Positions 18,417-39,808 of a stretch of 64,000 nucleotides of DNA are shown here, piece by piece. The notes under the pieces were generated by a model that was not told where the DNA came from, searched no databases, and saw only the letters and a program-made list of their open reading frames with translations. The stretch comes from an uncultured SAR116 cluster alpha proteobacterium (GTDB taxonomy: Bacteria > Pseudomonadota > Alphaproteobacteria > Puniceispirillales > GCA-002684695), in contig CACBIM010000002.1 in NCBI GenBank assembly GCA_902539295.1, positions 62,001 to 126,000 of the forward strand. The letters are read 5' to 3'. Position 1 is the stretch's first letter, and every line of letters begins with the position of its first letter. The position numbers and the translations under genes are program-made.

Positions 18417-18755
18417 CTATTTGTCTTCTAGGTATTCATAGGCTAGTTGAGCTATTTGCTCCGACCTCAAACCAGACAAACAATAAGCAAAGATGGGCTT
18501 TTTATCACTTTTCAATAAATCTGCAAAATTCTTAATATCATCCATTGAAAGTCTCAATGGTACAAAAGGAATATATTCAACAGATAGGCCATGATTATTT
18601 GCCTCATTTCTAATTGCATCAATATTTGTTTGCCCTTGACCTTCATTATCAGGCCTATTGCAAACAATTGTTTTAATTCCATGTTCTTTTAAGAGTTGAA
18701 CATCGCTTTTACTAATTTGTGAGCCAACATAAAGCTCTTCATTGATTTTTTTCAT
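18417..18755 (-). CDS. DUF442 (TIGR01244-type) phosphatase/sulfurtransferase-like protein
   Basis: The 112-residue protein is the domain found fused to the metallo-hydrolase in Blh proteins. It contains the active-site loop YCLSGLRS, a CX4R motif like the CRTGTRS loop of the family, and the N-terminal motif EELYVGSQIS. I choose the ATG at 18755 because AAGAAGG lies five bases before it. An ATG at 18800 overlapping the upstream stop would add a basic 15-residue segment without a ribosome-binding site. It probably hands persulfide sulfur to or from the dioxygenase encoded upstream; that role is inferred from the known gene fusion. Confidence 0.82.
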   Translation of the reverse strand: MKKINEELYVGSQISKSDVQLLKEHGIKTIVCNRPDNEGQGQTNIDAIRNEANNHGLSVEYIPFVPLRLSMDDIKNFADLLKSDKKPIFAYCLSGLRSEQIAQLAYEYLEDK

Positions 18756-18796
18756 TTTTTCCTTCTTAAAAAATTTTGTTAGATAATTTTTAATAC

Positions 18797-19660
18797 TCAT
18801 AAATTATCTATAGGTATTTTTAGATACTTAACACCGTTATTTTCTTCTTCTGGCAAATCGCCTGCACGCATATTTACTTGCGTAGCTGGAATTATTAATT
18901 TTGGCATGCTCAAAGTAGAATCTCTTGCTTCACGCAACTCAACATATTTATCTTCTGTGATACCGTCTTTAACATGTATATTATTCTTTCTTTGTTCTGA
19001 AACAGTTGTCTCCCATGAGATTTCTCTTCCTCCTGGGCCGTAATCATGACAAATAAACAGTCTAGTCTCTCCTGGTAAGTTAAGGACCTTCTTAATAGAC
19101 CTATATAAAGTTCTTGCATCGCCCCCTGGAAAATCAGCTCTCGCAGTACCTCCATCTGGCATAAACAAAGTATCACCTACAAAAGCTGTATCTTCAATTA
19201 TATGAACCATACAAGCTGGAGTATGTCCTGGAGTATGCATTGTTTGAGCATTTAGCTCACCAATTTTGTATGTGTCATTATCTTTAAATAATTTATCGAA
19301 CTGACTTCCATCTCTTTCAAATTCAGTTCCAGCATTAAATATCTTACCAAAAGTATCTTGGACCAATATAATAGCCTCACCAATACCAATTTTTCCACCA
19401 ATTTTATCCTGAATATATGGAGCTGCTGACAAGTGATCAGCATGAACATGTGTCTCTATTATCCATTCAAGATTTAATTTATTACTTTTAATAAACTCAA
19501 TTATTTCATCAGCATTTTTTGTAGATGTTCTTCCAGATGAAATATCAAAATCTAAAACAGAATCAATAACTGCACAATTTTTAGTTTTTGGGTCTTCAAC
19601 AACATAACTTATTGTGCCTGTCGAACTATCGTGAAAAGCTTTTATAATGGGTTTATTCAT
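18797..19660 (-). CDS. Persulfide dioxygenase-like metallo-beta-lactamase-fold protein
   Basis: This 287-residue MBL-fold protein has the motif ETHVHADHLSAAPY, with His71, His73, Asp75 and His76. Further metal ligands are in HTPGHTPACM and VGDTLFMPDGG. The HVHADHLSAA form and the GTARADFPGGDA segment are typical of ETHE1/Blh persulfide dioxygenases, which oxidise glutathione persulfide to sulfite in sulfide detoxification. This fits the sulfide-using MetY elsewhere in the window. It is transcribed divergently from mmsA. No BigR-like repressor gene is visible. Confidence 0.85.
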   Translation of the reverse strand: MNKPIIKAFHDSSTGTISYVVEDPKTKNCAVIDSVLDFDISSGRTSTKNADEIIEFIKSNKLNLEWIIETHVHADHLSAAPYIQDKIGGKIGIGEAIILVQDTFGKIFNAGTEFERDGSQFDKLFKDNDTYKIGELNAQTMHTPGHTPACMVHIIEDTAFVGDTLFMPDGGTARADFPGGDARTLYRSIKKVLNLPGETRLFICHDYGPGGREISWETTVSEQRKNNIHVKDGITEDKYVELREARDSTLSMPKLIIPATQVNMRAGDLPEEENNGVKYLKIPIDNL

Positions 19661-21316: not shown

Positions 21317-21916
21317 TTATTCAAATTCGGCTTTACCTACAAATTTGGGATCAAATGGCGTTCTTGAAAAAATCTCATTCACTAAAGGCTTAAAATAATC
21401 TAGAGATTTAGTTGGGTAATCTGGATCAAATGACATCTGATCCCAGTCACGGCAAAATTTATCACAGGACGAAAACCATTTGTGATCCTTATATCTCTCT
21501 CTCAATGACTTATCTATTCCAATTTCATTCCCAATATATTCTTTTGGACCAAAATAGAACATCTGGAATAGACCATGCATCGAAATAATCCAAGTCACCT
21601 CTTCTCTTACATAAGGCCTTATTATTGTTGACGCTAATTGAGAATGATTAGCAGGTGCTAAATCATCACCAAGGTCATGGATTAAAGCACCAACAATTAA
21701 TTCCTTGTCTGCTCCATCTTCCTCAGCCCGTGTCGCAGATTGGAGAGAGTGTTGAAGCCTTGTAATACGATATCCAGATAAAGTGTTATCTAAGTTTATC
21801 AAAGCTCCTATAATTCTATCTGGCAAACCTTTTGTGAATTCTACCTCTCCCTTATGAAGAAATGCATACTCTTCTGGGGTGCCCTCATCCATTCTTGTAA
21901 AACTTACTTTTTCCAT
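21317..21916 (-). CDS. PhnZ-like HD-domain protein, putative diiron oxygenase
   Basis: This 199-residue HD-domain protein resembles the mixed-valence diiron oxygenases PhnZ and TmpB. Visible candidate iron ligands are His56 (LQHSLQ), His80-Asp81 (ALIHDLGD), His91 (ANHSQ), His114 (MHGLF) and Asp159 (WDQ). The spacing between the first His and the HD pair (24) equals that of PhnZ, and the flanks (HSLQ...GAD, ALxHDLG) are close. The PhnZ segment AAKRY after the fourth His, which helps hold the phosphonate, is replaced by GLFQM. A different substrate is therefore likely. It faces the two demethylating flavoprotein genes divergently, across 157 bases. A hydrolase role is also possible. The substrate is unknown. 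Confidence 0.75.
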   Translation of the reverse strand: MEKVSFTRMDEGTPEEYAFLHKGEVEFTKGLPDRIIGALINLDNTLSGYRITRLQHSLQSATRAEEDGADKELIVGALIHDLGDDLAPANHSQLASTIIRPYVREEVTWIISMHGLFQMFYFGPKEYIGNEIGIDKSLRERYKDHKWFSSCDKFCRDWDQMSFDPDYPTKSLDYFKPLVNEIFSRTPFDPKFVGKAEFE

Positions 21917-22073
21917 TTCTAAAGCCCTCTTAAAACCTTTAATAGAGTTATTTTACACAAAAATTTATTTAAATCTAAAATAATCAATTTTTTTTAAATT
22001 TTAATGATTTTTTGACTTTGCAAAATAAATAAAATGTTCAATATAAAAATTATAACAACTTTAAAGGTTTCAA

Positions 22074-24563
22074 ATGCCAGAAGATATATCAAGTTCAAAA
22101 GCGAAAGAAGAAAACAGTAAATTACCCTCGCATGCTAGAGTGGTTGTAATTGGAGGTGGAGTAGTCGGCTGTTCCATTTTATATCATCTGACTTTACATG
22201 GATGGAAGGACGTTGTTCTCCTGGAAAAAAATGAACTTACATCGGGGTCAACTTGGCATGCTGCAGGGAACTGTCCAAATTTTGTCGGCTCTTGGACAAT
22301 GATGAAAATGCAGTCCTATTCAACCCAGCTTTATAGAAAACTAGGTGATCTTGTAGACTACCCAATTAATTATCATGTGACAGGTGCAATTCGACTAGCT
22401 CATTCAAGACAAAGAATGGAAGAATTCAGGCATGTCTGTTCAATGGGAAAACAGATGGGCGTTGAATTTGAAATGCTTACAAACAGTGAAATTCAAGAAT
22501 TACATCCATACATAGAGACACATGATTTAGAAGGCGGTCAATGGGATCCACTCGATGGTGACATTGATCCAGCTCAATTGACCCAAGCTCTTGCCAGAGG
22601 AGCAAAAAATAATGGTGGTAAAATTATAAGATTTTGCCCAGCAACAAATGCAAAGCGTGTTAATGACGAATGGCTTATAACAACTCCTGAAGGAAATATT
22701 ACATGTGAGTATGTTGTAAATGCTGCTGGATATAGAGCTGCTGAAGTTGGAAAAATGTTTGGAAGAAATGTCCCTTGTGTTTCATTAGCACATCAGTATT
22801 TAATAACGGAACCTATTCCAGAATTAGAAGCTAATAAGTATAAAGTCCCATTATTAAGAGACCCAGACTCTTCATATTATTTAAGACAAGAAAAAGATGG
22901 TTTGTTACTTGGTCCATATGAAAAAAATTGTAGGGCGCATTGGACTACATCTGACGATCCTATGCCTGAGGACTTTTCATTTCAATTATATAATGATGAT
23001 CTAGAAAGATTGGAATGGTATATTGAAGATGCTTGTAAAAGAGTGCCTTTGCTTGGCAGTGTAGGAATTACACGCGTTGTTAATGGGCCAATTCCATATG
23101 CTCCAGATGGCTTGCCATTGATAGGTCAAATGCCAGGTGTAAAGAATGCTTTTGAAGCATGTGTATTTACATTTGGAATTGTTCAAGGAGGGGGTGCTGG
23201 AAAACTACTAGCTGATATAATTGTTGAAGGTGAACCTGAAACTGACTCATGGGCAGTAGATCCAAGACGATATACTAATCATGTTGACCTTGAGTACACC
23301 AAAGCTAAGGCCATTGAAACTTATAGCCATGAATATGCTATGCACTTTCCTCAAATACAATGGCCGGCCGGAAGACCTGCTAAAGTCTCTCCTATTTATG
23401 ATAGTTTGCTAAAAGCTGGAGCAGTAATGGGTTCTTATGGTGGATGGGAAAGAGCTGATTGGTTCACAAATAATGAAAGTTTAAAAAAACCTGCTAATTC
23501 CTATGACAGACAACATTGGTTTGATGATGTATCAAAAGAGTGTAACCATGTTGCAGAACACTGTGGTGTAATTGATCTAACTGGTTTCTCACGATTTGAA
23601 ATTTCGGGTGAAAGAACATCTCAATGGCTAGAAACACTTATAACCGGACGTTTACCAAAAATAGGTAAAGTAGGTCTTGTATATTTTTCATCCCATAAAG
23701 GAAAAGTGCTTACCGAAATGACAGCAACCAGAATTTCTGAAGACCACATATGGTTGCTTACTGGTGCTGGTGCTTATTGGCATGATAGAGACTGGTTGCA
23801 TTTTAATCTCCCTGAAAGCAGCAACATAAAAATTGTTGATACAACTCATGATCTAGGAACTATGTTATTAACAGGACCAAAATCAGATTTATTAATTGCT
23901 AAACTTACTGACGAAAAAACAGACAATGAGAGTTTTCCCTGGTTAAGTCATAAATCTATAAAATTATGTGGTGAAGACACACGTGTTTTAAAGGTTTCTT
24001 ATGCAGGTGAAAAGGGCTTCGAAATTCATGTTCATAATGGCAGAATGAAAAAAATATATGATGAGCTTGTTCAACATGGAAAGAACTTTAACTTAATCCA
24101 TTTTGGAATGCTCGCATTAGACTCAATGCGGTTAGAAAAAAATTATCGCTCATGGAAGAGTGATTTAACTTCAGACTACACAATGCTTCAAAGCGGGTTA
24201 GAAAAGTGGATAAAATTTGACAAAGGTAATTTTATTGGCAAGGAAGCACTAAAGAATGAGTTTGATTTAGGAACCTCTAAAAAGTTCGTAACCCTTGTTG
24301 TAGATGATCCAGAAGATAATAAACCATTTGGAGAACCAGTATATTTGTCACCAGTTTTTGCTGGAGATGATTATCTTGGGCCAATTGTCTCTTCAGGTTA
24401 CGGTCATAGAGTGAAAAAGTCTATTTCTATGGCCATTCTGGATGACAGAAACCTTAATGGATTAAATGATCAATTGTATATTGATGTTCTAGGCAGAAAA
24501 AGAAAAGCATATATAGTTAATGAAGCCTTGTATGATCCTGAAAATCTTAAACTAAGGAGTTAA
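22074..24563 (+). CDS. Dimethylglycine/sarcosine dehydrogenase-like flavoprotein, copy 1
   Basis: An 829-residue two-part enzyme: an FAD-dependent amine dehydrogenase (about 20-410) and a C-terminal GcvT-like tetrahydrofolate-binding region (about 440-820). The dinucleotide motif VVVIGGGVVG is at 23-32. His62 in STWHAAG is the residue that binds FAD covalently in this family. Such enzymes remove N-methyl groups from dimethylglycine or sarcosine and pass formaldehyde to tetrahydrofolate. The segment after WHAAG (NCPNFVGSW) differs from the LIAQLR of copy 2, so substrate specificity may differ. It ends two bases before copy 2. Confidence 0.88.
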   Translation: MPEDISSSKAKEENSKLPSHARVVVIGGGVVGCSILYHLTLHGWKDVVLLEKNELTSGSTWHAAGNCPNFVGSWTMMKMQSYSTQLYRKLGDLVDYPINYHVTGAIRLAHSRQRMEEFRHVCSMGKQMGVEFEMLTNSEIQELHPYIETHDLEGGQWDPLDGDIDPAQLTQALARGAKNNGGKIIRFCPATNAKRVNDEWLITTPEGNITCEYVVNAAGYRAAEVGKMFGRNVPCVSLAHQYLITEPIPELEANKYKVPLLRDPDSSYYLRQEKDGLLLGPYEKNCRAHWTTSDDPMPEDFSFQLYNDDLERLEWYIEDACKRVPLLGSVGITRVVNGPIPYAPDGLPLIGQMPGVKNAFEACVFTFGIVQGGGAGKLLADIIVEGEPETDSWAVDPRRYTNHVDLEYTKAKAIETYSHEYAMHFPQIQWPAGRPAKVSPIYDSLLKAGAVMGSYGGWERADWFTNNESLKKPANSYDRQHWFDDVSKECNHVAEHCGVIDLTGFSRFEISGERTSQWLETLITGRLPKIGKVGLVYFSSHKGKVLTEMTATRISEDHIWLLTGAGAYWHDRDWLHFNLPESSNIKIVDTTHDLGTMLLTGPKSDLLIAKLTDEKTDNESFPWLSHKSIKLCGEDTRVLKVSYAGEKGFEIHVHNGRMKKIYDELVQHGKNFNLIHFGMLALDSMRLEKNYRSWKSDLTSDYTMLQSGLEKWIKFDKGNFIGKEALKNEFDLGTSKKFVTLVVDDPEDNKPFGEPVYLSPVFAGDDYLGPIVSSGYGHRVKKSISMAILDDRNLNGLNDQLYIDVLGRKRKAYIVNEALYDPENLKLRS

Positions 24564-24565
24564 TT

Positions 24566-27037
24566 TTGAATATTCCAGAAGAAGCTAATGTTGTTATAAT
24601 TGGTGGTGGCGTAATTGGATGCTCAATAGCTTATCACTTGGGAAAACTTGGCTGGAAAGATATTTTACTCTTAGAAAGAAAAAAACTTACATGCGGAACA
24701 ACTTGGCATGCTGCTGGTCTTATAGCGCAGCTCAGAGCAACCCAAAACATGACCAGATTAGCTAAATATAGTCAGGAATTATATTGGGATCTAGAAAAGG
24801 AAACGGGTGTTGTAACTGGTTTTAAGAGAAATGGTTCCATGACAGTAGCTCTTACAGAAGAAAGACTGGAAGAACTCAACAGGCAAGCTGACATGGCAAG
24901 AGCTTATGATGTTGAAATTGAAAATATTGATAAGGCAGAAATTAAATCAAGGTATCCACATTTAAACACCGAAGATGTTCTTGGTGGTTTATGGCTGCCA
25001 AAAGATGGGCAAGCTGATCCAGTAAACATTACCCAAGCACTTGCAAAAGGAGCAAGGAATTTTGGAGTTAAAATCTTAGAAGATGTTAAAGTTCTAGATA
25101 TCGAAACTAAAGATAATAAAATATCTGGTGTTAAAACTGAAAAAGGTTATATAAAGTCAAAATTTGTTGTCAATGCTGGCGGTATGTGGGGGCAAGAAAT
25201 AGGTAAAATGGCTGGAGCATCTGTTCCACTACACGCTTGTGAGCATTTCTATATTGTCACTGAACCAATAGAAGGATTGAAAGAAGAATTACCTGTTCTG
25301 AGAGTCCCTGATGAATGCGCTTACTATAAAGAGGATGCAGGAAAAATCTTGCTTGGCGCTTTTGAGCCAAATTCAAAACCATGGGGTGGAGATGGCATAC
25401 CAGAAGATTTTGAATTTGATAGTTTACCTGAAGATTTTGATCATTTTGAACCAATCCTTGAAAGAGCAATTAATAGATTTCCTCATCTTGGAAGTGCTGG
25501 AATAAAAACATTTTTTAATGGACCAGAAAGTTTTACTGTAGACAATAGATACCTACTGGGTGAAACACCTGAAATTAAAAACTTTTTTGTGGCGGCAGGG
25601 TTTAACTCTGTTGGCATTCAATCTGCTGGTGGTGCTGGAAAGGTGCTTGCTGATTGGATTAAAAATGGTAGACCAAATATTGACCTTTGGGAAGTTGATA
25701 TCAGGCGTATGATGCCCTTTCAGAGAAATAAACAATATCTTAAAAAACGTGTATCTGAAACTCTTGGTCTTTTGTACGCTGATCATTTTCCATATAGACA
25801 ATTTGAGACTGGAAGAAATATTAAAAGAAGTCCTATACATTCTTATCTTAAAAATTATGGAGCTTGTTTTGGTGAAACTTCTGGCTGGGAAAGACCTAAC
25901 TGGTTTCTCAACAAACAACAATTAGAGCAGAAAATTACTCCTGAATATAAATATTCATGGAAGAGGCAGAATTGGTTTGAAAATAGTGCTGATGAACATA
26001 ATGCAGTTAGAAAATCCGTTGGCTTATATGATCTTTCTAGTTTTGGCAAGATTAGAATTGTTGGCAGAGATGCCGAAGACTTACTGCAAAAAATATGTGG
26101 GAATAATATAGCCGTCTCTCCAGGGAAAATTGTTTATACACAATTTTTAAATGATGATGGAGGCATAGAATCAGATATCACAATTACACGTTTATCTTCA
26201 GATGAATTTATAGTCGTAACGCCTGCTGCAACAATACAGAAAGACATTAATTGGATAAAAGGCCATATTCCAGATAATGCTCATTGTCATGCTTACGATG
26301 CAACATGCTCAGAAGCTGTCATATCAATCATGGGACCTGATGCGCGTAAATTTCTTCAACCACTCATTTTAGAATCTTTAGATAATGAAAAATTTCCCTT
26401 TGGAACTGCTAAAGAAATTGAAATAGGTATGGGAATAGCAAGGGCACACAGAATTAGTTATGTAGGAGAGCTCGGTTGGGAAATTTATATTTCATCAGAT
26501 ATGTCTTCTTATGTCTTTGAGGAAATTATGAGAAGGAATTCCGAAATGCCAATCAAACTTTGTGGCCTCCATAGTCTTGATAGTTGCAGGATAGAAAAAG
26601 CTTACAGGCATTATGGACATGATATTTCTTCAGAAGACAATATTATAGAAGCAGGCCTTGGTTTTGCTGTTAAGACACATAAACCTAAAAGTAAATTTGG
26701 TGATTTTATTGGGAAAAATGCTGTAGAAATTAAAAAACAGGAAGGCGTTCAAAAAAGAATGATACAGTTTGTCTTAGAAAACCCTGAACCACTTCTTTTC
26801 CATAATGAACCTATAATAAAAAATGATAAAATTGTTGGTTATCTAACCAGTGGAAATTATGGGCATCATCTTGGATCAGCTGTTGGAATGGGATATGTTG
26901 AATGCGATAAAAAAGGCGAAAGTCCAGAAGAACAATTAAAGGGTGAGTATATGATTGATGTTGCAGGCAAGAGATATACTGCTACTCCATATTTGAAACC
27001 AGCCTACGATCCATCGAATGTTAATATCAAAATTTAA
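24566..27037 (+). CDS. Dimethylglycine/sarcosine dehydrogenase-like flavoprotein, copy 2
   Basis: An 823-residue paralog of the preceding gene with the same domain order. FAD motif VVIIGGGVIG (9-18) and the covalent-FAD histidine His48 in TTWHAAGL are present, followed by LIAQLRATQNMTRLA, the canonical form in dimethylglycine and sarcosine dehydrogenases. The C-terminal folate domain includes GELGWEIY. The start is TTG at 24566 with AAGGAG six bases before it. Tandem paralogs would allow two successive demethylations, dimethylglycine to sarcosine to glycine. Which copy does which step cannot be told. Confidence 0.9.
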   Translation: MNIPEEANVVIIGGGVIGCSIAYHLGKLGWKDILLLERKKLTCGTTWHAAGLIAQLRATQNMTRLAKYSQELYWDLEKETGVVTGFKRNGSMTVALTEERLEELNRQADMARAYDVEIENIDKAEIKSRYPHLNTEDVLGGLWLPKDGQADPVNITQALAKGARNFGVKILEDVKVLDIETKDNKISGVKTEKGYIKSKFVVNAGGMWGQEIGKMAGASVPLHACEHFYIVTEPIEGLKEELPVLRVPDECAYYKEDAGKILLGAFEPNSKPWGGDGIPEDFEFDSLPEDFDHFEPILERAINRFPHLGSAGIKTFFNGPESFTVDNRYLLGETPEIKNFFVAAGFNSVGIQSAGGAGKVLADWIKNGRPNIDLWEVDIRRMMPFQRNKQYLKKRVSETLGLLYADHFPYRQFETGRNIKRSPIHSYLKNYGACFGETSGWERPNWFLNKQQLEQKITPEYKYSWKRQNWFENSADEHNAVRKSVGLYDLSSFGKIRIVGRDAEDLLQKICGNNIAVSPGKIVYTQFLNDDGGIESDITITRLSSDEFIVVTPAATIQKDINWIKGHIPDNAHCHAYDATCSEAVISIMGPDARKFLQPLILESLDNEKFPFGTAKEIEIGMGIARAHRISYVGELGWEIYISSDMSSYVFEEIMRRNSEMPIKLCGLHSLDSCRIEKAYRHYGHDISSEDNIIEAGLGFAVKTHKPKSKFGDFIGKNAVEIKKQEGVQKRMIQFVLENPEPLLFHNEPIIKNDKIVGYLTSGNYGHHLGSAVGMGYVECDKKGESPEEQLKGEYMIDVAGKRYTATPYLKPAYDPSNVNIKI

Positions 27038-27060
27038 TCCAGATTTAGGAGTTCTTATAA

Positions 27061-28608
27061 ATGGATGATATTCCAATGAAAAGAAATAGACGTTCTGGTG
27101 GAAGATCAGCTAGAAAGCTTAAAAGAGCTGCACCATTACCAGACAACATAAAACCAATTGGTCCTGGCATGATTGGTGGGACCTATAAACCTCTTTCTCA
27201 AAGCGACATATCAGCAATTGAACATACTATCTTTCAACTTCTTAATGAAGTTGGTCTCTCACAAGCCCCTGATACTGGCATTGCTTCAATGTTAAATTAT
27301 GGTGCTTTTTTAGGAGACGATCAAAGACTCAAGTTTCCAGAAAATGTTGTTCGAAAAGCTATTGGTGACACTCATAAAAATATTACGCTTTTTGGGCAGA
27401 TAGAAAAATTTGATATGCATTTAAAGAAAAATCATGTTCATTATGGAACCGCTGGCGCGGCTGTAAATGTAGTAGACTCTCATAATAAAAACTACAGACC
27501 ATCTGAAGCACAGGATATTTATAATGCAGCATGCCTAGCTGAAAAAATGGATAATATACATTTCTTTCAAAGACCTATGGTTGCAACAGATATCGAAGAC
27601 CCCAAAGAAATGGATTTGAATACTTTATATGCTTGTATTTCTGGCACACAAAAACATATTGGGGTTAGCTTTACAGAAGCTGAATTTATAAAGCCAGTTT
27701 CTGAAATGCTCCATATTATTTCTGGTGGAGAAGACAAGTGGAGAGAACGCCCATTTATTTCTAATTCAAATGCTTTTGTAGTACCCCCAATGCGTTTTGC
27801 AACTGAAAGTTGTTTAGTTATGGAAGAGTGCATCAAGGCTGGAATTCCAGTTTTACTTCTGTCAGCTGGCCAGGCTGGAGCAACAGCACCAGCATCAATA
27901 GCTGGAACAATAGCACAAGCTACAGCTGAAGTTTTAGCAGGATTAGTTTATGTTAACTCTATTAAACCTGGTCATCCATGCATTGCTGGGACTTGGCCTT
28001 TTGTCTCAGATCTTAGAACGGGAGCCATGTCAGGTGGTTCAGGAGAGCAAGGTTTGCTCTCTGCAGCATGCGCTCAAATGCTATGCCATTTTGACTTGCC
28101 TTCAGGTGCAGCTGCAGGAATGTGCGATTCTAAATTGCCAGACTCTCAATCTGGTTATGAAAAGGGTTCTACAGCTGTAATGGCAGGTTTAGCAGGTTTA
28201 AATTTAGTTTATGAATCAGCGGGAATGCATGCTTCTCTTTTAGGTTTTAGTTTAGAGAGTATGATTATCGATAACGATATGCTTGGGCAATGTTTAAGAT
28301 GTGTTAGAGGAATTGAAGTTAACGATGATACTCTCTCTTTTGAGGCTATTAAAGATGTTTGTTTAAATGGTCCAGGTCATTATTTAGGCCATGATAGAAC
28401 ACTTGCCGTTATGGAATCTGAATATGTTTATCCTATAATCTCTGATCGATCGACCCCAAAAGAATGGAATGAAAATAACAAACCTGAAATCATCAACTCA
28501 GCTCATGATGAAGTCAAAGATATACTGGAAAATCATAAGCCAACTCATATTAGTAGTGAAACTGACAAATTAATCAGAGAAAAGTTTAAAATTTATTTTA
28601 CTAAATAA
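27061..28608 (+). CDS. Trimethylamine methyltransferase-family (MttB-like) protein without pyrrolysine
   Basis: This 515-residue MttB-superfamily protein starts with the typical basic RNRRSGGRSARKLKR segment and continues as a TIM barrel. I see no in-frame amber codon, so it belongs to the non-pyrrolysine branch. Characterised members of that branch move a methyl group from glycine betaine or related quaternary amines to a corrinoid protein. No corrinoid protein or reactivase gene lies in the window. AGGAG precedes the ATG, and the gene follows the two flavoproteins after 23 bases, so it is in the same operon. Betaine or another N-methyl compound is the best guess for substrate. Confidence 0.87.
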   Translation: MDDIPMKRNRRSGGRSARKLKRAAPLPDNIKPIGPGMIGGTYKPLSQSDISAIEHTIFQLLNEVGLSQAPDTGIASMLNYGAFLGDDQRLKFPENVVRKAIGDTHKNITLFGQIEKFDMHLKKNHVHYGTAGAAVNVVDSHNKNYRPSEAQDIYNAACLAEKMDNIHFFQRPMVATDIEDPKEMDLNTLYACISGTQKHIGVSFTEAEFIKPVSEMLHIISGGEDKWRERPFISNSNAFVVPPMRFATESCLVMEECIKAGIPVLLLSAGQAGATAPASIAGTIAQATAEVLAGLVYVNSIKPGHPCIAGTWPFVSDLRTGAMSGGSGEQGLLSAACAQMLCHFDLPSGAAAGMCDSKLPDSQSGYEKGSTAVMAGLAGLNLVYESAGMHASLLGFSLESMIIDNDMLGQCLRCVRGIEVNDDTLSFEAIKDVCLNGPGHYLGHDRTLAVMESEYVYPIISDRSTPKEWNENNKPEIINSAHDEVKDILENHKPTHISSETDKLIREKFKIYFTK

Positions 28609-28660
28609 AATTATTGTTATTTAATGTTTACATTAAATTAATTTTTGAAAATCCTTGAAA

Positions 28661-28909
28661 ATGAACAAAACAGGAAAAAGAGGCAGGCCCAAAAAAGAGA
28701 ATGTGATGGAAACTATCGCAGTTAGACTTCCTTATGAAATCATTTTAGAAATCGATAATTATGTGAATAGACTAAAAAAACAATTTCAGGGTATGAATGT
28801 TACGAGAGCTGACGCAATTAGGCAGCTAATTAATAATGGTCTAAATGCAAATCCCAAAGAAAGTAAAAACCCAGATATTGAAGAAGAAAAGAGACGTTTC
28901 TGGGACTAA
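28661..28909 (+). CDS. Ribbon-helix-helix (CopG-like) regulator with AT-hook-like N-terminus
   Basis: The 82-residue protein begins with a KRGRPKK motif, like a minor-groove AT-hook, followed by a ribbon-helix-helix fold: the strand METIAVRLP, a helix around EIILEIDNYVNRL and a second helix TRADAIRQLINNGL. It probably binds DNA as a dimer. I prefer the ATG at 28661 over a TTG two codons earlier; neither has a clear Shine-Dalgarno. It sits between the methylated-amine operon and the glycine riboswitch and may regulate one of them. Confidence 0.75.
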   Translation: MNKTGKRGRPKKENVMETIAVRLPYEIILEIDNYVNRLKKQFQGMNVTRADAIRQLINNGLNANPKESKNPDIEEEKRRFWD

Positions 28910-28969
28910 TTTTTTTTCTCTTTTCATTTGTATAAAATTATGCAATGTTAAATAGTCTATTAATTTTAG

Positions 28970-29137
28970 TGGGAGAGTCTAAGTATTTACTTAGCGCCGA
29001 AGGAGTAACCGCCTCGGAACCTCTCAGGCAAACGGACCGCTAAAATTTGACACTCTGGAAAGTGGCAATAGCCCACCCAAGGTGAAAGTTAGATATTTTA
29101 TCTAATTAATCTCTCAGGTACCAAGACAGAGGGGGCA
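28970..29137 (+). promoter_or_regulatory. Tandem glycine riboswitch
   Basis: Two glycine aptamers follow each other. Aptamer 1 (about 28971-29062) shows GGGAGAGTCT, GCGCCGAAGGAG, CCTCTCAGGCAAA, GGACCG and ACTCTGGAAAG. Aptamer 2 (about 29063-29136) shows GGCAATAGCCCACC, AAGGTGAAAG, TCTCTCAGGTACC and GACAGAGGGGG. Their cooperative binding of glycine switches on the downstream gcv operon. A small inverted repeat AGTAATT/AATTACT follows at 29141, but I see no T run, so the output is probably translational or by another mechanism. Confidence 0.95.
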
Positions 29138-29184: not shown

Positions 29185-30309
29185 ATGCTTGAGAATGAAA
29201 TAAAATCATCACCAATAGAAGAAATTCATTCTTTAAATGATGCTAAATTTGTGAATTTTGCCGGCTGGTCAATGCCGATACAATTCCCTAATGGAATAAT
29301 TAATGAACATATTTCAACACGATCCTCTTGTGGCCTTTTTGATATTTCACATATGGGACAAATACTTATAGACGGTGATGAAAGCAGATTATTACTTGAA
29401 AAAATAACACCTACAGATATTAGCAAAATTCAAACTGGTAAAGTTAGATATAGCTTTCTCTTAAATAATGAAGGCGGAATTATTGATGACTTAATGATAA
29501 CAAATGAAGGTGATTGTTTTTATCTTGTTGTTAACGCAAGCCGAATAAATGAAGATTTAGAAGAAATAAATAATGCATCAAAATCTTTTTCAAAAATAAA
29601 TATCAAACATCTTAAGCAAAATGGAATGATTGCTTTACAGGGTCCAAAAGCGAAAGATGTAGTATCAAGTTTTTTTAGAGAAATAGACGATTCTTTCTTC
29701 TTTATGAGTTTTAAGAAATTTACATTAAACGAAGATGAGGTCAGAGTTTCCCGTATTGGTTACACTGGAGAAGATGGGTTTGAGATATCTTCAACAAAAA
29801 AAACAATTTTAGAATTAACTAAATTCTTTCTTGATGATGAAAGAGTAACTCTATGTGGCCTTGGTGCAAGAGATACTCTGAGACTAGAAGCCGGTTTGCC
29901 CCTATATGGCAATGAACTCAATGAAAAAATGACACCTGTCGAAGCTGATTTAGCTTTTGCTATCTCTCCATCAAGAATAAAGGATGGTAATTTTAGAGGA
30001 GCTGACAAAATCCTAAACGAAATTGAAAATGGATCTCAATTTGTAAGAGTTGGTCTACTGCCTGAAGGCAGAAGACCAGTGAGAAAAGGAACACCTATAT
30101 TCAATAATGATGAGAAAATTGGTGAAATAAGCAGTGGTGGATACGGACCTACAATTAAATCACCCATTGCGATGGGAATAATTAAAAGTGAGTTTAATAA
30201 ACCAAATCATAAGCTTACTGCAAAATTAGGAGAAAATTCAATTCCAATGACAATTACTTCGTTGCCATTTGTTGAACATAGATACTTTAAGAAAGGTAAT
30301 AAAAAATGA
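29185..30309 (+). CDS. gcvT: Glycine cleavage system T protein (aminomethyltransferase)
   Basis: GcvT moves the aminomethyl carbon from lipoyl-GcvH to tetrahydrofolate, giving methylene-tetrahydrofolate and ammonia. The 374-residue protein has the N-terminal motif VNFAGWSMPIQF, GLFDISHMG, IDDLMIT with its catalytic aspartate region, and the C-terminal GEISSGGYGPTIKSPIAMG. Its length is normal. It overlaps gcvH by four bases and is the first gene under the glycine riboswitch. Confidence 0.95.
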   Translation: MLENEIKSSPIEEIHSLNDAKFVNFAGWSMPIQFPNGIINEHISTRSSCGLFDISHMGQILIDGDESRLLLEKITPTDISKIQTGKVRYSFLLNNEGGIIDDLMITNEGDCFYLVVNASRINEDLEEINNASKSFSKINIKHLKQNGMIALQGPKAKDVVSSFFREIDDSFFFMSFKKFTLNEDEVRVSRIGYTGEDGFEISSTKKTILELTKFFLDDERVTLCGLGARDTLRLEAGLPLYGNELNEKMTPVEADLAFAISPSRIKDGNFRGADKILNEIENGSQFVRVGLLPEGRRPVRKGTPIFNNDEKIGEISSGGYGPTIKSPIAMGIIKSEFNKPNHKLTAKLGENSIPMTITSLPFVEHRYFKKGNKK

Positions 30310-30659
30310 AAAAATTTGCTAAAACACATGAGTGGATAAATACAGAGAATGGTGAAGTTGGTATAACTGAAAATGCAATTGAGCAATTAGGTGATATTGT
30401 ATTCTTAGAGCTACCAGAGGCTGGAAAAGAAGTTACAAAAGACAGTCCAATAGCGGTAGTAGAATCTGTTAAGGCTGCCAGTGATATCTACAGTCCTGTT
30501 TCAGGAAAGATTTTAGAAAAAAATGAAGACTTAGAGAATGCTCCTGAAGAACTTAATGAGAAGCCAACCTCATGGCTGTTTAAAATTGAACTAGCACAAG
30601 ATACAGAGCTAGAAGATCTTCTTGATGAAGAACAATATTTACAAGAAATAGAAAACTAA
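30306..30659 (+). CDS. gcvH: Glycine cleavage system H protein
   Basis: GcvH carries the lipoyl arm that shuttles the aminomethyl group. The lipoylated residue is Lys56 in VESVKAASD. At 117 residues it is slightly shorter than the usual 125-130, mainly at the N-terminus, which begins directly with KKFAKTHEWI. All core motifs, including the C-terminal EKPTSWLFKIE, are present. ATGA overlap with gcvT. Confidence 0.95.
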   Translation: MKKFAKTHEWINTENGEVGITENAIEQLGDIVFLELPEAGKEVTKDSPIAVVESVKAASDIYSPVSGKILEKNEDLENAPEELNEKPTSWLFKIELAQDTELEDLLDEEQYLQEIEN

Positions 30660-30668
30660 GAGGGATTT

Positions 30669-33497
30669 ATGGAATACGGTCATTTTAAGGAAGAAAATTT
30701 TTCAAAAAGACATATTGGTCTTAACGAAGAAGATAAAAGAAACCTTTTAAAAAAACTTGGTTATGAAACAATGGACAAGTTCATTAATGATGTTGTGCCT
30801 CAAAATATAAAAAGAAGTGCGCCTATGAAAATTGAAAAAGAGCTTTCAGAAAAGCAACTTCTTTCAAAAATCAAAGAGTATGCATCATTAAACAAAACTA
30901 TGATCTCAATGATTGGGCAAGGTTTTTATAGTACGCATACACCTTCAGTACTTTTAAGGAATATTCTAGAAAACCCATCTTGGTATACTGCTTACACACC
31001 CTATCAACCTGAAATTAGTCAAGGCAGGTTGGAAGCATTATTAAATTTTCAAACAATGATATCAGAAATTACTTCATTACCAATCGCAAACGCTTCGATG
31101 TTAGATGAATCGACAGCTGCTGCCGAAGCGATGACCATGTCATTTAAACTTTCTAACAACAAGAATACTGTAATTTTAGATAAATATCTTCATCCGCAAA
31201 CTATTAATGTTATTAAGACTAGGGCAGAACCACTTGGCATAAATTTAATAATTTCAGAAAATCCAGAAAAAGAAAAACTCGACAATTGTTCTTGTGTTAT
31301 CTTTCAATATCCTAATACCGAGGGAAAAATTAAGAACCTCGATGATGATATTAAAATAATTCAAAATGCTGGAAGTATGGTAATTCTTGTTGCGGATTTA
31401 TTATCTTTAGCACTTATAAAATCCCCTGGTGAAATGGGAGCAGATATTGCTGTTGGATCTACACAAAGATTTGGTGTTCCAATGGCATTTGGTGGTCCTC
31501 ATGCTGGATATTTTGCAACAAAAGAAAAGTTTAGTAGAAAAATGCCAGGGAGATTAGTAGGCGTTTCTCAAGATAAAACAGGTCTCAAAGCATACAGACT
31601 TGCACTTCAAACAAGGGAACAGCATATCAGAAGAGAAAAGGCCACTTCTAATATTTGCACAGCTCAAGCATTATTGGCCATAATGGCTGGATTCTATGGG
31701 GTCTGGCATGGACCAAATGGCCTTAAAAATATTGCCATGAAAGTCAATCAATATGCATCAAAATTTGCTAACTTAGCTTTAGAGGCAGGTTTTAATATAA
31801 GACATGACAATTTTTTTGACACAGTGGTTGTGGAAACTAAAGATAAAACCGATGAATATGTAAAAAGAGCCTTAAAAGAAAACATAAATATCCGCAAACT
31901 TGAAAATGCAGTTTCGTTAAGTTTTGATGAATTATCTAATGATGAAATCATTGATAAATTAAAAATTGCATTTAAAATAAATGATAAAATAAAAGTAAAA
32001 AATAATTTTCATATAAACCCCTCATTACATAGAAAAGAAGGATTTTTAGAGCATCCTATTTTTTCATCAATATCGTCTGAAACCGAAATGCTTAGATACA
32101 TAAGACATCTATCAGATCGAGATTTAGCTTTAGACAGAACAATGATACCTTTGGGCTCTTGCACTATGAAATTAAATGCATCAACTGAAATGATGCCAAT
32201 AACATGGCCAGAGTTTTCAAATATTCACCCTTTTGCACCTAAGGATCAAACTCTTGGCTATAAAAAGTTAATTGATGAACTTGAAATTTCGCTTTGCACA
32301 CTTACTGGCTATGACGGTATTTCATTACAACCTAATGCTGGATCACAAGGTGAATTTGCTGGTTTATTGGCAATTAGAAAATTCCATCAGTCAAATGGGG
32401 AAATTAATCGAAACATTTGTTTAATCCCCTCCTCTGCGCATGGAACAAATCCTGCGTCTGCCGTAATGGCAGGAATGACAGTTGTTGTTGTTTCATGTGA
32501 CAAAAATGGCAATATTGATGTTAATGATCTAGAAGAAAAAGCCAGAGAACATAAAGAAAATCTTGCCGCTATGATGGTAACTTATCCATCTACACATGGT
32601 GTCTTTGAAAAAGATATTAAAAAAGTTTGTGAAACAATTCATAAATATGGAGGACAAGTATACGTTGATGGAGCAAATTTAAATGCGTTAATAGGACTAG
32701 TCTCTCTTACTGAGATTGGTGCAGACGTTAGTCATTTAAATCTTCATAAGACATTTTGTATACCACACGGTGGTGGTGGACCAGGTGTAGGTCCAGTAGC
32801 AGTTAAAAAACATTTGATCCCATTCCTACCTGGAAATGTATTTGATGAGACTAGCGCTATATCATCAACAACTTATGGAAGTGCTGGTATCTTACCGATT
32901 TCTTGGTCTTATATATCCATGATGGGAGAAGAAGGTTTGAGAGATGCCACAAAAACAGCAATTCTTTCAGCTAATTACATTGCAAATAAGTTACGTCCTT
33001 ATTACCCAATTCTTTTCACTGATGAAAAAGGTATGGTAGCTCATGAATGTATTTTAGATATTAATGAAATCACTTCTAACACAAATATAACTAACGAAGA
33101 TATTTCAAAAAGACTAATTGATTACGGCTTCCATGCTCCTACAATGTCTTGGCCAGTTCCTAATACTTTGATGGTTGAACCCACTGAGTCAGAACCAATG
33201 TCAGAGGTTGATAGGTTTTGCGACGCAATGATTTCAATTGCTAAGGAAATTGATGAAGTAAAAAATGGGAATTGGTCTAAAGAAGACAATCCAGTAATTA
33301 ATGCGCCTCATACTGTTGAGACATTAACTCAAGAAAATTGGTCACATCCTTATTCAAGACAAATTGCATTAGCCAATCTATCTGAAAAAAGTAATAAATA
33401 TTTTCCACCAGTAGGCAGAATAGATAATGTATTCGGTGATAGAAATTTAGTTTGTAGTTGTCCTCCAATTGAAGCATATGAGCATGAACAAACTTAG
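30669..33497 (+). CDS. gcvP: Glycine dehydrogenase (decarboxylating), P protein, single chain
   Basis: GcvP decarboxylates glycine on PLP and loads the aminomethyl group onto GcvH. The 942-residue protein is the one-chain form (both halves fused), with the N-terminal FSKRHIGLN motif, MIGQGFYSTHTPSVLLRN and the PLP lysine in LNLHKTFCIPHGGGGPG (Lys694). GAGGGA lies just before the ATG. With gcvT and gcvH it completes the specific part of the complex; the L protein is not in the window. No clear terminator follows; only a weak GAGAC/GTCTC hairpin without a T run is seen at 33504-33530. Confidence 0.96.
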   Translation: MEYGHFKEENFSKRHIGLNEEDKRNLLKKLGYETMDKFINDVVPQNIKRSAPMKIEKELSEKQLLSKIKEYASLNKTMISMIGQGFYSTHTPSVLLRNILENPSWYTAYTPYQPEISQGRLEALLNFQTMISEITSLPIANASMLDESTAAAEAMTMSFKLSNNKNTVILDKYLHPQTINVIKTRAEPLGINLIISENPEKEKLDNCSCVIFQYPNTEGKIKNLDDDIKIIQNAGSMVILVADLLSLALIKSPGEMGADIAVGSTQRFGVPMAFGGPHAGYFATKEKFSRKMPGRLVGVSQDKTGLKAYRLALQTREQHIRREKATSNICTAQALLAIMAGFYGVWHGPNGLKNIAMKVNQYASKFANLALEAGFNIRHDNFFDTVVVETKDKTDEYVKRALKENINIRKLENAVSLSFDELSNDEIIDKLKIAFKINDKIKVKNNFHINPSLHRKEGFLEHPIFSSISSETEMLRYIRHLSDRDLALDRTMIPLGSCTMKLNASTEMMPITWPEFSNIHPFAPKDQTLGYKKLIDELEISLCTLTGYDGISLQPNAGSQGEFAGLLAIRKFHQSNGEINRNICLIPSSAHGTNPASAVMAGMTVVVVSCDKNGNIDVNDLEEKAREHKENLAAMMVTYPSTHGVFEKDIKKVCETIHKYGGQVYVDGANLNALIGLVSLTEIGADVSHLNLHKTFCIPHGGGGPGVGPVAVKKHLIPFLPGNVFDETSAISSTTYGSAGILPISWSYISMMGEEGLRDATKTAILSANYIANKLRPYYPILFTDEKGMVAHECILDINEITSNTNITNEDISKRLIDYGFHAPTMSWPVPNTLMVEPTESEPMSEVDRFCDAMISIAKEIDEVKNGNWSKEDNPVINAPHTVETLTQENWSHPYSRQIALANLSEKSNKYFPPVGRIDNVFGDRNLVCSCPPIEAYEHEQT

Positions 33498-33573: not shown

Positions 33574-34194
33574 TTAGAATTGTTGATTGACCTTTAAAAC
33601 TCGAAATCTACCACCTCGGTTTTTATTTTGTTTATTATCAATCACTTCAATTGAAGTAAAACTCAAATGAGATATTTCTATTCCAATTGATTTATCAGGC
33701 GCTATATTCAATATATGAGACAAAATAGCTTTTATAGTTCCTGAATGGGTAATATAAACAACAGACTTTTTATTATCAAAATCGAAGTTATCTATAAAAT
33801 TAGCAACACGATTGCACTGGTCTAAATAACTATCACCATTTGGTGGACTAATTTCTGGACAAATAAAAGAGAAATTATGTTGGCTTTTATTATTTTTTAA
33901 TTCTTCCCAAACATCAGATATTTTTTTTCCTGCCCAATCACCAAAATTCTGCTCAACCAAGTCTTTCTCTACTAAAATATCTTTAAATTTTACAAATTTT
34001 GATAATGCTTTTGCAGTTTGAATTGTTCTTTTTAATGGGCTTGTGTAACAAAAACTTTTATTAGGAATATAAGATGAAAGTTTTTTAATATGATCTAAAT
34101 TAACTACAGCATTAGGATTATTTTGAGGTATAAAGCCTTTTATTTTTTCAACTGGCGCATGTCTAACTAATATTAATTTTGTACTTTTAATCAA
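33574..34194 (-). CDS. cobC: Histidine phosphatase, likely alpha-ribazole phosphatase (CobC)
   Basis: A 206-residue branch-1 histidine phosphatase. The phosphohistidine is His12 in LVRHAP, with Arg11, Arg56 in SPLKRT, Glu81 and the second histidine His150 in YITHSG. The family includes phosphoglycerate mutases, but linkage to cobS and cobT (4-base overlap with cobS) makes alpha-ribazole-phosphate dephosphorylation in the lower cobalamin pathway the best reading. The C-terminus is basic (NRGGRFRVLK). Confidence 0.82.
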   Translation of the reverse strand: MIKSTKLILVRHAPVEKIKGFIPQNNPNAVVNLDHIKKLSSYIPNKSFCYTSPLKRTIQTAKALSKFVKFKDILVEKDLVEQNFGDWAGKKISDVWEELKNNKSQHNFSFICPEISPPNGDSYLDQCNRVANFIDNFDFDNKKSVVYITHSGTIKAILSHILNIAPDKSIGIEISHLSFTSIEVIDNKQNKNRGGRFRVLKVNQQF

Positions 34195-34976
34195 ATTAAA
34201 CCACTTAAATATATTACTAAACCAAATAAAAAAGCTAATTCTGATATGAATGCAGTAGCTCCTAAAACATCACCTGTAATTCCACCTAATTTTTGATTAG
34301 ACAGTTTTCCTATATAGAACACTACTATTATTATAAAAATAATTCCCAATAACAGCGCAAAAAAAGGCAAATAAAGAAGTGCTGGAACAAACCAAAGCAA
34401 ACTTGCCAACATCATATTTTTTGGAGAAACAATCTCTATGATACTTCCTATTTTGGCTAAGCTAGAATTATTATTAAAATTTCTCATAAAAATAATAGCT
34501 AATTTACCTGAAGCAAAACCAATACTCAGAATAATCAATAGAGAATATCCTAGATTAACAAGAGAAATTACCAAACCTAAACGAATTAAAAGCCCCAAAG
34601 TTAAAGCTGATGTTCCATAAGTACCAAGACGACTATCATGCATAATCTTATTTATTTTATCAGGCTTTCCTCCAGCTCCAAACCCATCAGCCATATCTGC
34701 TAACCCATCTTCATGGAAAGCCCCAGTAAGAAGAACACTAATTGTTATTGCTGTAACACAAGATATAAATACAGGAACATTTATAAGGATTAAAAGTTCA
34801 CCAAAACCACCTGAAAGAAACCCAACCAAAAATCCTACCAAAGGGAAAGACCATGCCGCCCTCGTTAAATCAGGCGCTTTATCAGAAAAATAAGGCCAAT
34901 TAATAGGGATCCTAGTAAAGAACATAATTGAAGCAAAAATATCTACTAAATACTTATTTTGGAAAAAAGTTTTCAC
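34191..34976 (-). CDS. cobS: Adenosylcobinamide-GDP ribazoletransferase (cobalamin synthase)
   Basis: CobS joins adenosylcobinamide-GDP with alpha-ribazole (phosphate) at the membrane to make cobalamin. The 261-residue integral membrane protein has the acidic active-site motif HEDGLADMADGFG (88-100), the second motif DSRLGTYG and several hydrophobic helices, and ends with a hydrophobic segment. Length is normal. It overlaps its neighbours on both sides by four bases. Confidence 0.93.
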   Translation of the reverse strand: MKTFFQNKYLVDIFASIMFFTRIPINWPYFSDKAPDLTRAAWSFPLVGFLVGFLSGGFGELLILINVPVFISCVTAITISVLLTGAFHEDGLADMADGFGAGGKPDKINKIMHDSRLGTYGTSALTLGLLIRLGLVISLVNLGYSLLIILSIGFASGKLAIIFMRNFNNNSSLAKIGSIIEIVSPKNMMLASLLWFVPALLYLPFFALLLGIIFIIIVVFYIGKLSNQKLGGITGDVLGATAFISELAFLFGLVIYLSGLI

Positions 34977-35995
34977 GAAGCATTTTTATTAGTTACAAGG
35001 GCATCAGAAAATGTTGACATTCCGTTATGTGTAACAATTGCAGATTTTAATATAAGAGATGCTATTGCAGCACCACTACCTTCCCCAAGTCTTAAATTTA
35101 GATCTAAAATTGGATCTTTTTTCAAATAAGATAATATTTTTAAATGGCCAGGCTCTTTTGATAAATGTGATATTAAACAATGATCTAAAAAATTTTCATC
35201 ATAAAGAGTTAAAGTTGAAGCCGCGGCTGTGCATATAAATCCATCCAAGAGCACAGGAATAGACTTTAGTCTTGCAGCAATTACTGACCCCGCAATTGCT
35301 GAAATTTCTCTACCACCAAAACATGATAGTATTTTTATAGTGCTTGTAAATTTTGTACCGTGAAGTTTAAGAGCACTTTTTATAACAGACATTTTGTTTT
35401 CTAACTGTTTATTATTTAAACCGGTTCCAGTACCAGTCATGTTCTCAACTTTCTCATTAAAAAGAGCACATGATAAAGCTGAAGCAGATGTAGTGTTTGA
35501 TATGCCCATTTCACCCAAAACTAATAAGTCACAATTAGATGGAACAGAGTCAAAACCAGTTTGCATTGCAGATATTACTTCTTCTTTGTCCATAGCAAAA
35601 TTTTCTGAAAAATCTTTTGTTGGTTCATCTAAATCTAATGGGAGCACATTTAATTTCAGACCAGCTAATTTACATAACTGATTAATTGCTGCTCCACCTT
35701 TTTTAAAGTTTTCAACCATCTGCTCAGTAACCTCAGAAGGAAAGGCTGAGACCCCTTTTCTAGCAACACCATGGTTGCCTGCAAAAATCAAACAATGCGC
35801 ATTTTCTATTGAGGGATTTATTTTCTTTTGCCAGCCAGCCATCCAAATCGCATACTCTTCTAATTTACCTAAACTACCTTTAGGCTTTAAGAGTTCATTT
35901 TGTAATTCTTTAGCTTTGCTTGCCTTTAATTGGTCAAACTCGGGTATTTTTATAAGGCCATTAAAAAAATCTTTAATATAATTTTTTTTACACAT
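34973..35995 (-). CDS. cobT: Nicotinate-nucleotide--dimethylbenzimidazole phosphoribosyltransferase
   Basis: CobT activates the lower-ligand base by forming alpha-ribazole phosphate from dimethylbenzimidazole and nicotinate mononucleotide. The 340-residue protein has the conserved GEMGISNTTSA (161-171) and the catalytic glutamate Glu305 in RLGEGSGAA. It is the first gene of cobT-cobS-cobC. The 120 bases upstream (35996-36115) are AT-rich and contain no cobalamin riboswitch that I can recognise. cobU is absent from the window. Confidence 0.93.
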   Translation of the reverse strand: MCKKNYIKDFFNGLIKIPEFDQLKASKAKELQNELLKPKGSLGKLEEYAIWMAGWQKKINPSIENAHCLIFAGNHGVARKGVSAFPSEVTEQMVENFKKGGAAINQLCKLAGLKLNVLPLDLDEPTKDFSENFAMDKEEVISAMQTGFDSVPSNCDLLVLGEMGISNTTSASALSCALFNEKVENMTGTGTGLNNKQLENKMSVIKSALKLHGTKFTSTIKILSCFGGREISAIAGSVIAARLKSIPVLLDGFICTAAASTLTLYDENFLDHCLISHLSKEPGHLKILSYLKKDPILDLNLRLGEGSGAAIASLILKSAIVTHNGMSTFSDALVTNKNAS

Positions 35996-39462: not shown

Positions 39463-39517
39463 TTACCTAACAATTCTATTTGACAATTGTAATTCTATAA
39501 CACAAAGATATGATTAT

Positions 39518-39692
39518 AGGGTTTTCAGATTTATCTGAAATTAAAACGGGAATCTGGTGCAATATTTTTTAAAGCCAGAACTGCCCCCGCAACTGTAATT
39601 GGCGAGCCTTATTTCGAATGCCACTGGAATTATATTCTGGGAAGGTGAAATAAAGTGTTAACCCTTAAGTCAGGAGACCTGCCCTGTATTTC
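39518..39692 (+). promoter_or_regulatory. Cobalamin riboswitch upstream of the BtuB-like receptor
   Basis: The core shows GGGAATCTGGTGCAA, CCAGAACTGCCCCCGCAACTG, ATGCCACTGG, GGGAAGGTGAAATA and the B12-box GTCAGGAGACCTGCC (about 39670-39684), with GGTGAAATA able to pair with TATTTCACC near the 3' end. When cobalamin binds, expression of the receptor should fall. Downstream, 39693-39808 contains a CCCAC/GTGGG hairpin (39694-39712) and a GTGGAAA/TTTCCAC hairpin (39767-39782) just before AGAGGA, probably the expression platform. A possible promoter TTGTAA-16-TATGAT precedes it at 39487-39514. Confidence 0.93.
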
Positions 39693-39808
39693 ACCCACTT
39701 AGTGCGCGTGGGGCGTATTGGGGCAATTTAAAGCAGCGGTGATAAAAATTTATAAGCAACATCGCTGTGGAAATTTTTCCACTCGATATTAAAATATGAG
39801 AGGAAAAA

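Follow-up and report, generated by a model that had tools for sequence, protein, structure and literature searches.

A PhnZ/TmpB-like HD-domain protein with a predicted non-phosphonate pocket, from a SAR116 bacterium, as a candidate oxygenase of methylated-amine metabolism

Three HD-domain oxygenases were counted as characterised in a 2020 review: MIOX, PhnZ and TmpB. In the chemistry of such enzymes, the hydroxyl-bearing carbon of the substrate is converted to a carboxylate and its bond to the next atom is broken (PMC8177086). PhnZ and TmpB carry a 'YxxE' loop in which the tyrosine is a movable ligand of one iron (Fe2) and the glutamate holds the amino group of the substrate (PMC8177086). Carnitine biosynthesis, according to the abstract of one article, has not been observed in prokaryotes (PMC8085414). 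MttB-family glycine betaine methyltransferases ('MtgB') are known from marine bacteria of cosmopolitan distribution, and SAR116 is among the groups in which mtgC homologs were found (PMC12478193).

The window (the whole stretch of DNA that was analysed, 64,000 nucleotides from an uncultured SAR116 cluster alphaproteobacterium) encodes an HD-domain protein whose family, fold, metal ligands, pocket changes and gene contexts were read out computationally (Table 1). We interpret it, with a probability of roughly 0.55, as a dinuclear-iron oxygenase that forms a third branch beside PhnZ and TmpB and that cleaves a C-C bond in a hydroxylated trimethylammonium compound.

Table 1. Features of the window around the HD-domain gene
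Feature	Position	Strand	Basis or remark
HD-domain protein, PhnZ/TmpB-like diiron oxygenase (predicted), new subfamily	21317..21916	-	199 aa ORF; sequence, fold, tree
Coding stretch for six metal ligands (His56, His80-Asp81, His91, His114, Asp159)	21440..21751	-	Alignment with TmpB/Phn-HD ligands
Divergent intergenic region, 157 bp	21917..22073	.	Weak promoter-like matches on both strands near 21950-21981
Flavoprotein DAO-FAO_M-GCV_T-GCV_T_C, dimethylglycine/sarcosine-dehydrogenase-like	22074..24563	+	Pfam
Second flavoprotein DAO-FAO_M-GCV_T-GCV_T_C	24566..27037	+	Pfam
MttB-superfamily methyltransferase of non-pyrrolysine type (no in-frame amber codon), like glycine betaine methyltransferases	27061..28608	+	Pfam, ORF, NCBIfam
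Tandem glycine riboswitch upstream of gcvT-gcvH-gcvP	28960..29133	+	Rfam RF00504, 69.5 + 41.4 bits
gcvT (29185-30309), gcvH-like (30306-30659), gcvP (30669-33497)	29185..33497	+	ORF reading

When the HD protein was searched against all PDB chains with phmmer, PhnZ (E = 3e-7) and TmpB (E = 4e-6) were the only chains matched up to E = 10. Residues 46-84 align without gaps to residues 24-62 of PhnZ, which fixes the 24-residue spacing between the first histidine and the HD pair that an earlier, sequence-only reading of this DNA had likened to PhnZ; with a profile built from eleven homologs, the match widened to almost the entire PhnZ domain. The six candidate metal ligands listed in that reading are all present, and each is invariant (91/91) in an alignment of diverse family members. 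Given these sole PDB matches and the invariant ligands, the likeness to PhnZ and TmpB is well beyond chance. Neither Pfam nor NCBIfam gave a match to the MIOX family, no MIOX chain appeared in the PDB sequence search, and orthology with MIOX was accordingly ruled out. An AlphaFold2 model computed from 50 sequences reached a pLDDT of 93, and its ten best Foldseek matches in the PDB were PhnZ/TmpB chains (E from 3e-7 to 2e-5); MIOX came next (a weak fold match, probability 0.97 at E = 0.25), with alarmone, nucleotide and HD-GYP hydrolases ranked behind it and no hydrolase significant. Sequence, profile and fold searches of the PDB thus bear out the PhnZ/TmpB-type active site that had been proposed.

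The substrate side of the site was compared across 91 HD family members and 29 TmpB/Phn-HD proteins. Lys108, the phosphonate-binding position (lysine in 29/29 TmpB/Phn-HD proteins), is Gln118 in 91/91 family members, and the alanine that neighbours it is Phe117 in 90/91. The Glu27 position is tyrosine or phenylalanine in all 91, that of His62 is Asp84 in 89/91, and Tyr24 (29/29 in TmpB/Phn-HD) becomes Leu46 in most, with tyrosine kept in 5/91; Arg53 is present in 90/91. The phosphonate-binding segment HVAAKRY reads HGLFQMF in the window protein, and the exchange of AAKRY for GLFQM was therefore correctly noted from the sequence. The YxxE loop is absent from the alignment of the family, so that the gating of O2 must differ from that of PhnZ and TmpB. 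Because the substrate-side residues are systematically replaced, and because of the roles assigned to the tyrosine and the glutamate (PMC8177086), the pocket is a different one; a predicted pocket of non-phosphonate type, as originally suggested, is supported by this comparison.

A phylogenetic tree of 120 rows separates the 91 family members from the 29 TmpB/Phn-HD proteins with 100% SH-aLRT support, the branch between them summing to about 4 changes per site, and the window protein groups among SAR116-type homologs. The profile search and tree thus place the protein in a separate clade, in agreement with the new subfamily that had been proposed; the literature searched (mostly freely accessible journals) yielded no description of the subfamily, its pocket or its partner hydroxylase, and no biochemistry of any member. 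Within the order (Puniceispirillales), homologs occur in 61/136 genomes and in three of its four families; some genomes of the order hold broken copies. A scan of one genome per species found at least 579 relatives in Alpha-, Beta- and Gammaproteobacteria, including SAR11, SAR116, Halomonas, Marinomonas, Pseudomonas, Rhizobiales-like groups and Comamonadaceae. Members in plasmid records are labelled 'HD domain-containing protein' or 'phosphohydrolase', and some family members are annotated as 'inositol oxygenase family protein'.

Among these relatives, the HD gene adjoins a TauD/GBBH-type hydroxylase gene in 34 loci of the clustered set, usually lying a few bases downstream of it. The pair was found in 24 of 83 non-redundant loci, as against 0 in more distant zones, and numerous gamma-, beta- and alphaproteobacteria, among them SAR11, show the same gene order. 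On the TmpA model, whose cut-off is 400, the partner hydroxylases reach 316-346 bits; the GBBH and TMLH models give them less, and a tree gathers them in a single clade (99%) that excludes GBBH, TmpA and TMLH. At the position of Asn191 of human BBOX, they carry aspartate in 37/37 sequences, as do TMLH-like proteins (7/7), whereas TmpA carries asparagine (17/17). In TMLH, the homologous aspartate (Asp231) is believed to bind the alpha-ammonium group of trimethyllysine and so to determine specificity (PMC7764450). When TMLH itself was considered as a general partner of the HD protein, a close TMLH turned up in just 2 of 398 genomes of the phylum, both HD-positive and too few to decide, and most HD-positive genomes of that sample lack a TMLH match.

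Carnitine genes occur in the wider neighbourhoods of the HD gene. In Pseudomonas marincola, a single run holds genes for a choline-type binding protein, BKACE, L-carnitine dehydrogenase (537 bits on the NCBIfam model; cut-off 414), a thioesterase, a true GBBH (431 bits; cut-off 415), the hydroxylase and the HD protein. A divergent seven-gene cluster in SAR11 carries GBBH, an L-carnitine-dehydrogenase-like gene and BKACE on one strand and, on the opposite strand, an aldehyde dehydrogenase, an acyl-CoA synthetase (which we read as acetoacetyl-CoA-synthetase-like), the hydroxylase and HD. The HD gene of Rhizobiales-like genomes abuts that for L-carnitine dehydrogenase, start-to-stop, with BKACE (where readable) on its other side, and a member of a distant subgroup has the hydroxylase-HD pair beside GBBH, CDH and BKACE. 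A Pseudomonas aeruginosa plasmid combines the hydroxylase and HD with a choline-binding protein, choline dehydrogenase and aldehyde dehydrogenase; BCCT transporters follow or adjoin the pair in several marine genomes; and MttB-family genes lie near HD in Hellea and in two further genomes (G293 and G143). The proposed link to methylated-amine genes recurs independently in other lineages. L-carnitine dehydrogenase is present in 26/31 genomes with a close HD homolog and in 53/367 without one (398 genomes of the phylum; kinship ignored), while distant homologs show no significant excess in the same sample. Other surroundings offer no functional clue, as where HD lies beside PEPCK and FBPase-transketolase-GAPDH (one family of the order) or beside valS-like genes (Rhodobacteraceae-like genomes); many lone homologs, including those of several SAR116 genomes, have housekeeping neighbours; and one complete genome of the order has HD with no match to carnitine dehydrogenase, BKACE or a TauD-type hydroxylase.

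A kept iron site, a changed pocket and carnitine-like gene clusters together indicate that the protein is probably an unrecognised C-C-cleaving oxygenase of methylated-amine metabolism. For this enzyme we infer a diiron state and an O2 chemistry, with a substrate and product to match, whose general mechanism is held with moderate confidence: a hydroxylated trimethylammonium compound would bind through its hydroxyl to one iron, O2 would be activated at the other, and the C-C bond beside the hydroxyl-bearing carbon would be broken, that carbon leaving as a carboxylate. In the ancestral arrangement, the hydroxylated substrate would be made by the TmpA/gamma-butyrobetaine-hydroxylase-like enzyme encoded directly upstream, and the product would enter carnitine or glycine betaine catabolism.

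The substrate itself is proposed with low confidence. The candidate preferred from the gene clusters and alignments is 3-hydroxy-trimethyllysine, which would be cleaved to gamma-butyrobetaine and a glyoxylate-level fragment. The aspartate of all 37 partner hydroxylases, combined with GBBH, CDH and BKACE in the same clusters, points to a sequence that would lead from trimethyllysine through 3-hydroxy-trimethyllysine, gamma-butyrobetaine, carnitine and dehydrocarnitine to glycine betaine, with the HD enzyme as its second step. In its full form (a bacterial trimethyllysine pathway, SAR11 included, in which a TmpA-like enzyme, or the TMLH-like one of the window genome, makes 3-hydroxy-trimethyllysine and the HD enzyme replaces the eukaryotic aldolase and aldehyde dehydrogenase by cleaving C2-C3 to gamma-butyrobetaine, glyoxylate and ammonia) the proposal is tentative, and we consider it unlikely to hold in every part. 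The window genome fits it in part: its only TauD-type hydroxylase found is a TMLH-like enzyme (265 bits; cut-off 268), unlinked to HD, and it holds two CDH-BKACE pairs, but GBBH was not found in the assembly (88% complete). The aldehyde dehydrogenase of the SAR11 cluster is unexplained if the HD product is directly an acid, and counts against the proposed mechanism. In about 22 of the 33 near-complete genomes of the order whose HD gene is intact, the partner hydroxylase and a TMLH-like enzyme are both lacking, so that 3-hydroxy-trimethyllysine would not be home-made there unless another hydroxylase supplies it; in such genomes an imported compound (for example, carnitine) or another hydroxylase must provide the substrate. 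By position, two genes are candidates for such an alternative hydroxylase: one of sterol-desaturase type, which comes after HD on a Phaeobacter plasmid, and a Rieske gene with a distant likeness to GbcA, found close to HD in several SAR116 genomes.

The closest alternative, likewise of low confidence, is that the HD enzyme acts on a carnitine-type hydroxybetaine, cleaving carnitine or 2-hydroxy-3-trimethylaminopropionate directly to glycine betaine and a C2 or C1 acid; D-carnitine, with the spatial arrangement of the TmpB substrate, is possibly the compound concerned. Such a reaction would be the carbon analogue of that of TmpB, whose product is glycine betaine, and importable carnitine would make a hydroxylase unnecessary, which fits the many HD-positive genomes that lack one. 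The location of HD inside BKACE-CDH operons, the MttB-family and DMGDH-like genes close to it in the window genus, Hellea and G143, and the choline and aldehyde dehydrogenases of the P. aeruginosa plasmid cluster are all compatible with it. The same activity would nevertheless be redundant wherever the operon already has L-carnitine dehydrogenase and BKACE, and it explains neither the aspartate of the partner hydroxylase at the TMLH-specific position nor the presence of GBBH side by side with a second hydroxylase; we regard it as a doubtful, if serious, competitor.

At the window locus there is no adjacent partner hydroxylase, and the HD gene stands by itself next to a presumed glycine betaine demethylation operon; the TMLH-like enzyme may be its hydroxylase. 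The divergence of the HD gene from two flavoprotein genes and an MttB homolog, described from sequence, was confirmed by ORF and Pfam analysis. Promoter-like matches in the scanned stretch (6 found, 3.5 expected) are not evidence of function. Read together, the flavoprotein/mttB operon, the riboswitch and the gcv genes suggest that glycine betaine is broken down to glycine, the glycine cleavage genes being the likely sink. Since the operon and the tandem riboswitch point that way, it is plausible that the predicted HD enzyme feeds the demethylases. It may also be that a real HD oxygenase with an unconnected substrate merely lies next to an unrelated operon, and this we judge rather improbable. 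The HD gene meets an mmsA-type aldehyde dehydrogenase gene tail to tail and points away from the operon, so HD and the operon share no transcript; HD neighbours vary across the order; and the arrangement, seen in 4/4 same-genus loci examined (the window and three other genomes), is limited to that genus. The linkage was looked for in loci of the order's other families and not found, so that its conservation in related genomes, as first expected, does not extend beyond the genus. Against mere proximity speak the independent links found elsewhere: members of the family lie near MttB-family genes in Hellea, G293 and G143, and in several lineages they lie near carnitine genes.

A phosphohydrolase or nucleotidase is a considerably weaker proposition. 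The only Pfam family found in the protein is HD (PF01966), barely over threshold at 22.9 bits (cut-off 22), and the plasmid-record labels point the same way; that match, however, is at superfamily level and does not imply hydrolase activity, the dinuclear six-ligand set is fully conserved, and the fold search, in which ten PhnZ/TmpB chains and no hydrolase were significant, led us to reject an ordinary phosphohydrolase. Weakest of all, and highly improbable, is sequence drift from an ordinary phosphonate oxygenase of the TmpB/PhnZ kind: the closest solved relatives are indeed PhnZ and TmpB, and the TmpA model gives the partner hydroxylase its best (if sub-threshold) score, but the NCBIfam scores of the window protein are far under cut-off (Phn-HD, TIGR03276, 37 bits against 215; TmpB, NF049941, 30 against 300; PhnZ, NF052439, 23 against 300) and scores on the TmpB model span 30-44 bits, the lysine and glutamate positions are exchanged in every member and Tyr24 in most, the neighbourhoods hold carnitine rather than phosphonate genes, and true TmpA/TmpB pairs coexist separately in the same genus (G004, L182:10234-11949; 487 and 316 bits, above the NCBIfam cut-offs). 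Cut-offs, pocket residues and tree together rule out membership in PhnZ or TmpB, and the window protein is a paralog separate from TmpB.

The class of chemistry is already known; what the papers searched do not describe is the subfamily, with its pocket and its partner hydroxylase. Beside PhnZ and TmpB there is a large third bacterial branch, whose members carry hydrolase or inositol oxygenase annotations. Should a hydroxylated trimethylammonium compound prove to be the substrate, marine and soil bacteria would gain an O2-dependent C-C-cleaving step in the way they turn over carnitine, trimethyllysine and glycine betaine. The hydroxylase-HD pair offers a directly testable two-enzyme system.

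Compared with known systems, the protein is most like PhnZ (2-amino-1-hydroxyethylphosphonate oxygenase; PDB 4MLM, 4N6W and 4N71), its best match in sequence and fold searches, with which it shares the fold, the H...HD...H...H...D ligands and their 24-residue spacing. It differs in the loop from the HD pair to the next histidine (10 residues, longer in the PhnZ alignment), in the replaced YxxE loop and phosphonate lysine, and in the absence of phosphonate genes nearby. TmpB with TmpA (the 2-trimethylaminoethylphosphonate pathway; PDB 6NPA and 6NPB) provides the parallel for the pairing, seen in relatives, of an HD protein with a gamma-butyrobetaine-hydroxylase-like enzyme, and a quaternary amine is likely to be the substrate of the new family as well; yet the family is a distinct clade on a very long branch, and the partner hydroxylase, likewise a distinct clade from TmpA, has aspartate for asparagine at the substrate site; the window copy has no partner linked to it. 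MIOX is a chemical precedent for C-C cleavage by an HD diiron enzyme (PMC8177086), although it differs in size, matches the window protein weakly in fold and has no significant sequence match to it. Among the carnitine enzymes (TMLH, HTML aldolase, TMABA dehydrogenase and BBOX; CdhA and BKACE), the HD clusters hold GBBH, L-carnitine dehydrogenase and BKACE, together with a possible counterpart of TMLH; the place of the eukaryotic aldolase and aldehyde dehydrogenase would be taken, in these clusters, by an O2-dependent cleavage.

In SAR11 single-cell genomes (loci L126, L128, L130, L132, L146 and L148), the gene for HD, the predicted PhnZ/TmpB-like diiron oxygenase, belongs to a conserved set together with those for an aldehyde dehydrogenase, an acyl-CoA synthetase and a TmpA-like hydroxylase. 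A full reading of L126 additionally places GBBH (gamma-butyrobetaine hydroxylase), CDH (L-carnitine dehydrogenase) and BKACE, an enzyme of carnitine catabolism, divergent from the HD cluster. Together, these SAR11 genes look like a complete quaternary-amine pathway.

Other neighbors of HD are found elsewhere. On Phaeobacter inhibens plasmid pDOK1-1-2 (L227), genes for a hydroxylase of the sterol-desaturase family and a PanB-like aldolase come after an HD homolog; this hydroxylase may be an alternative partner. Class II aldolase/adducin-family genes repeatedly adjoin HD (L253, L261, L092, L107, L139 and L229), chiefly in distant HD subgroups. An unlinked TMLH-like (trimethyllysine hydroxylase-like) dioxygenase is encoded in the genome from which the window derives; of the 398 genomes sampled across the phylum, just 2 have this rare type, and both also have HD.

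In-frame stops or frameshifts interrupt the HD homologs of six genomes of the order (G064, G065, G070, G092, G103 and G104); several SAR116 lineages are losing the gene by decay, and it is therefore dispensable in them.

Within the window, the bifunctional sulfur transferase/dioxygenase Blh is represented by two separate, overlapping genes, one for a phosphatase-like domain and the other for an MBL persulfide-dioxygenase-like domain. PYLIS_3, the pyrrolysine insertion sequence of mttB, scores over the gathering threshold within the mttB homolog, which has no in-frame amber codon. A B12-related region, in which cobS/cobT-like and alpha-ribazole-phosphatase-like genes lie near a strong cobalamin riboswitch, is found near this B12-dependent MttB-type gene. 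The tandem riboswitch downstream of mttB is consistent with glycine as the end point of the window operon.

Coordinates of features in the window and on contig C7
Feature	Position	Location or score	Source
Blh, two genes	18417-19660		
PYLIS_3	28120-28219		Rfam
84-aa ORF, similar to ribbon-helix-helix regulator	28655-28909	between mttB and glycine riboswitch	
Tandem glycine riboswitch	28960-29133	between mttB and gcvT-gcvH-gcvP	Rfam
cobS/cobT-like and alpha-ribazole-phosphatase-like genes	33574-35995		
Cobalamin riboswitch	39502-39700	130 bits	Rfam
TMLH-like dioxygenase	L181:7987-9087	contig C7
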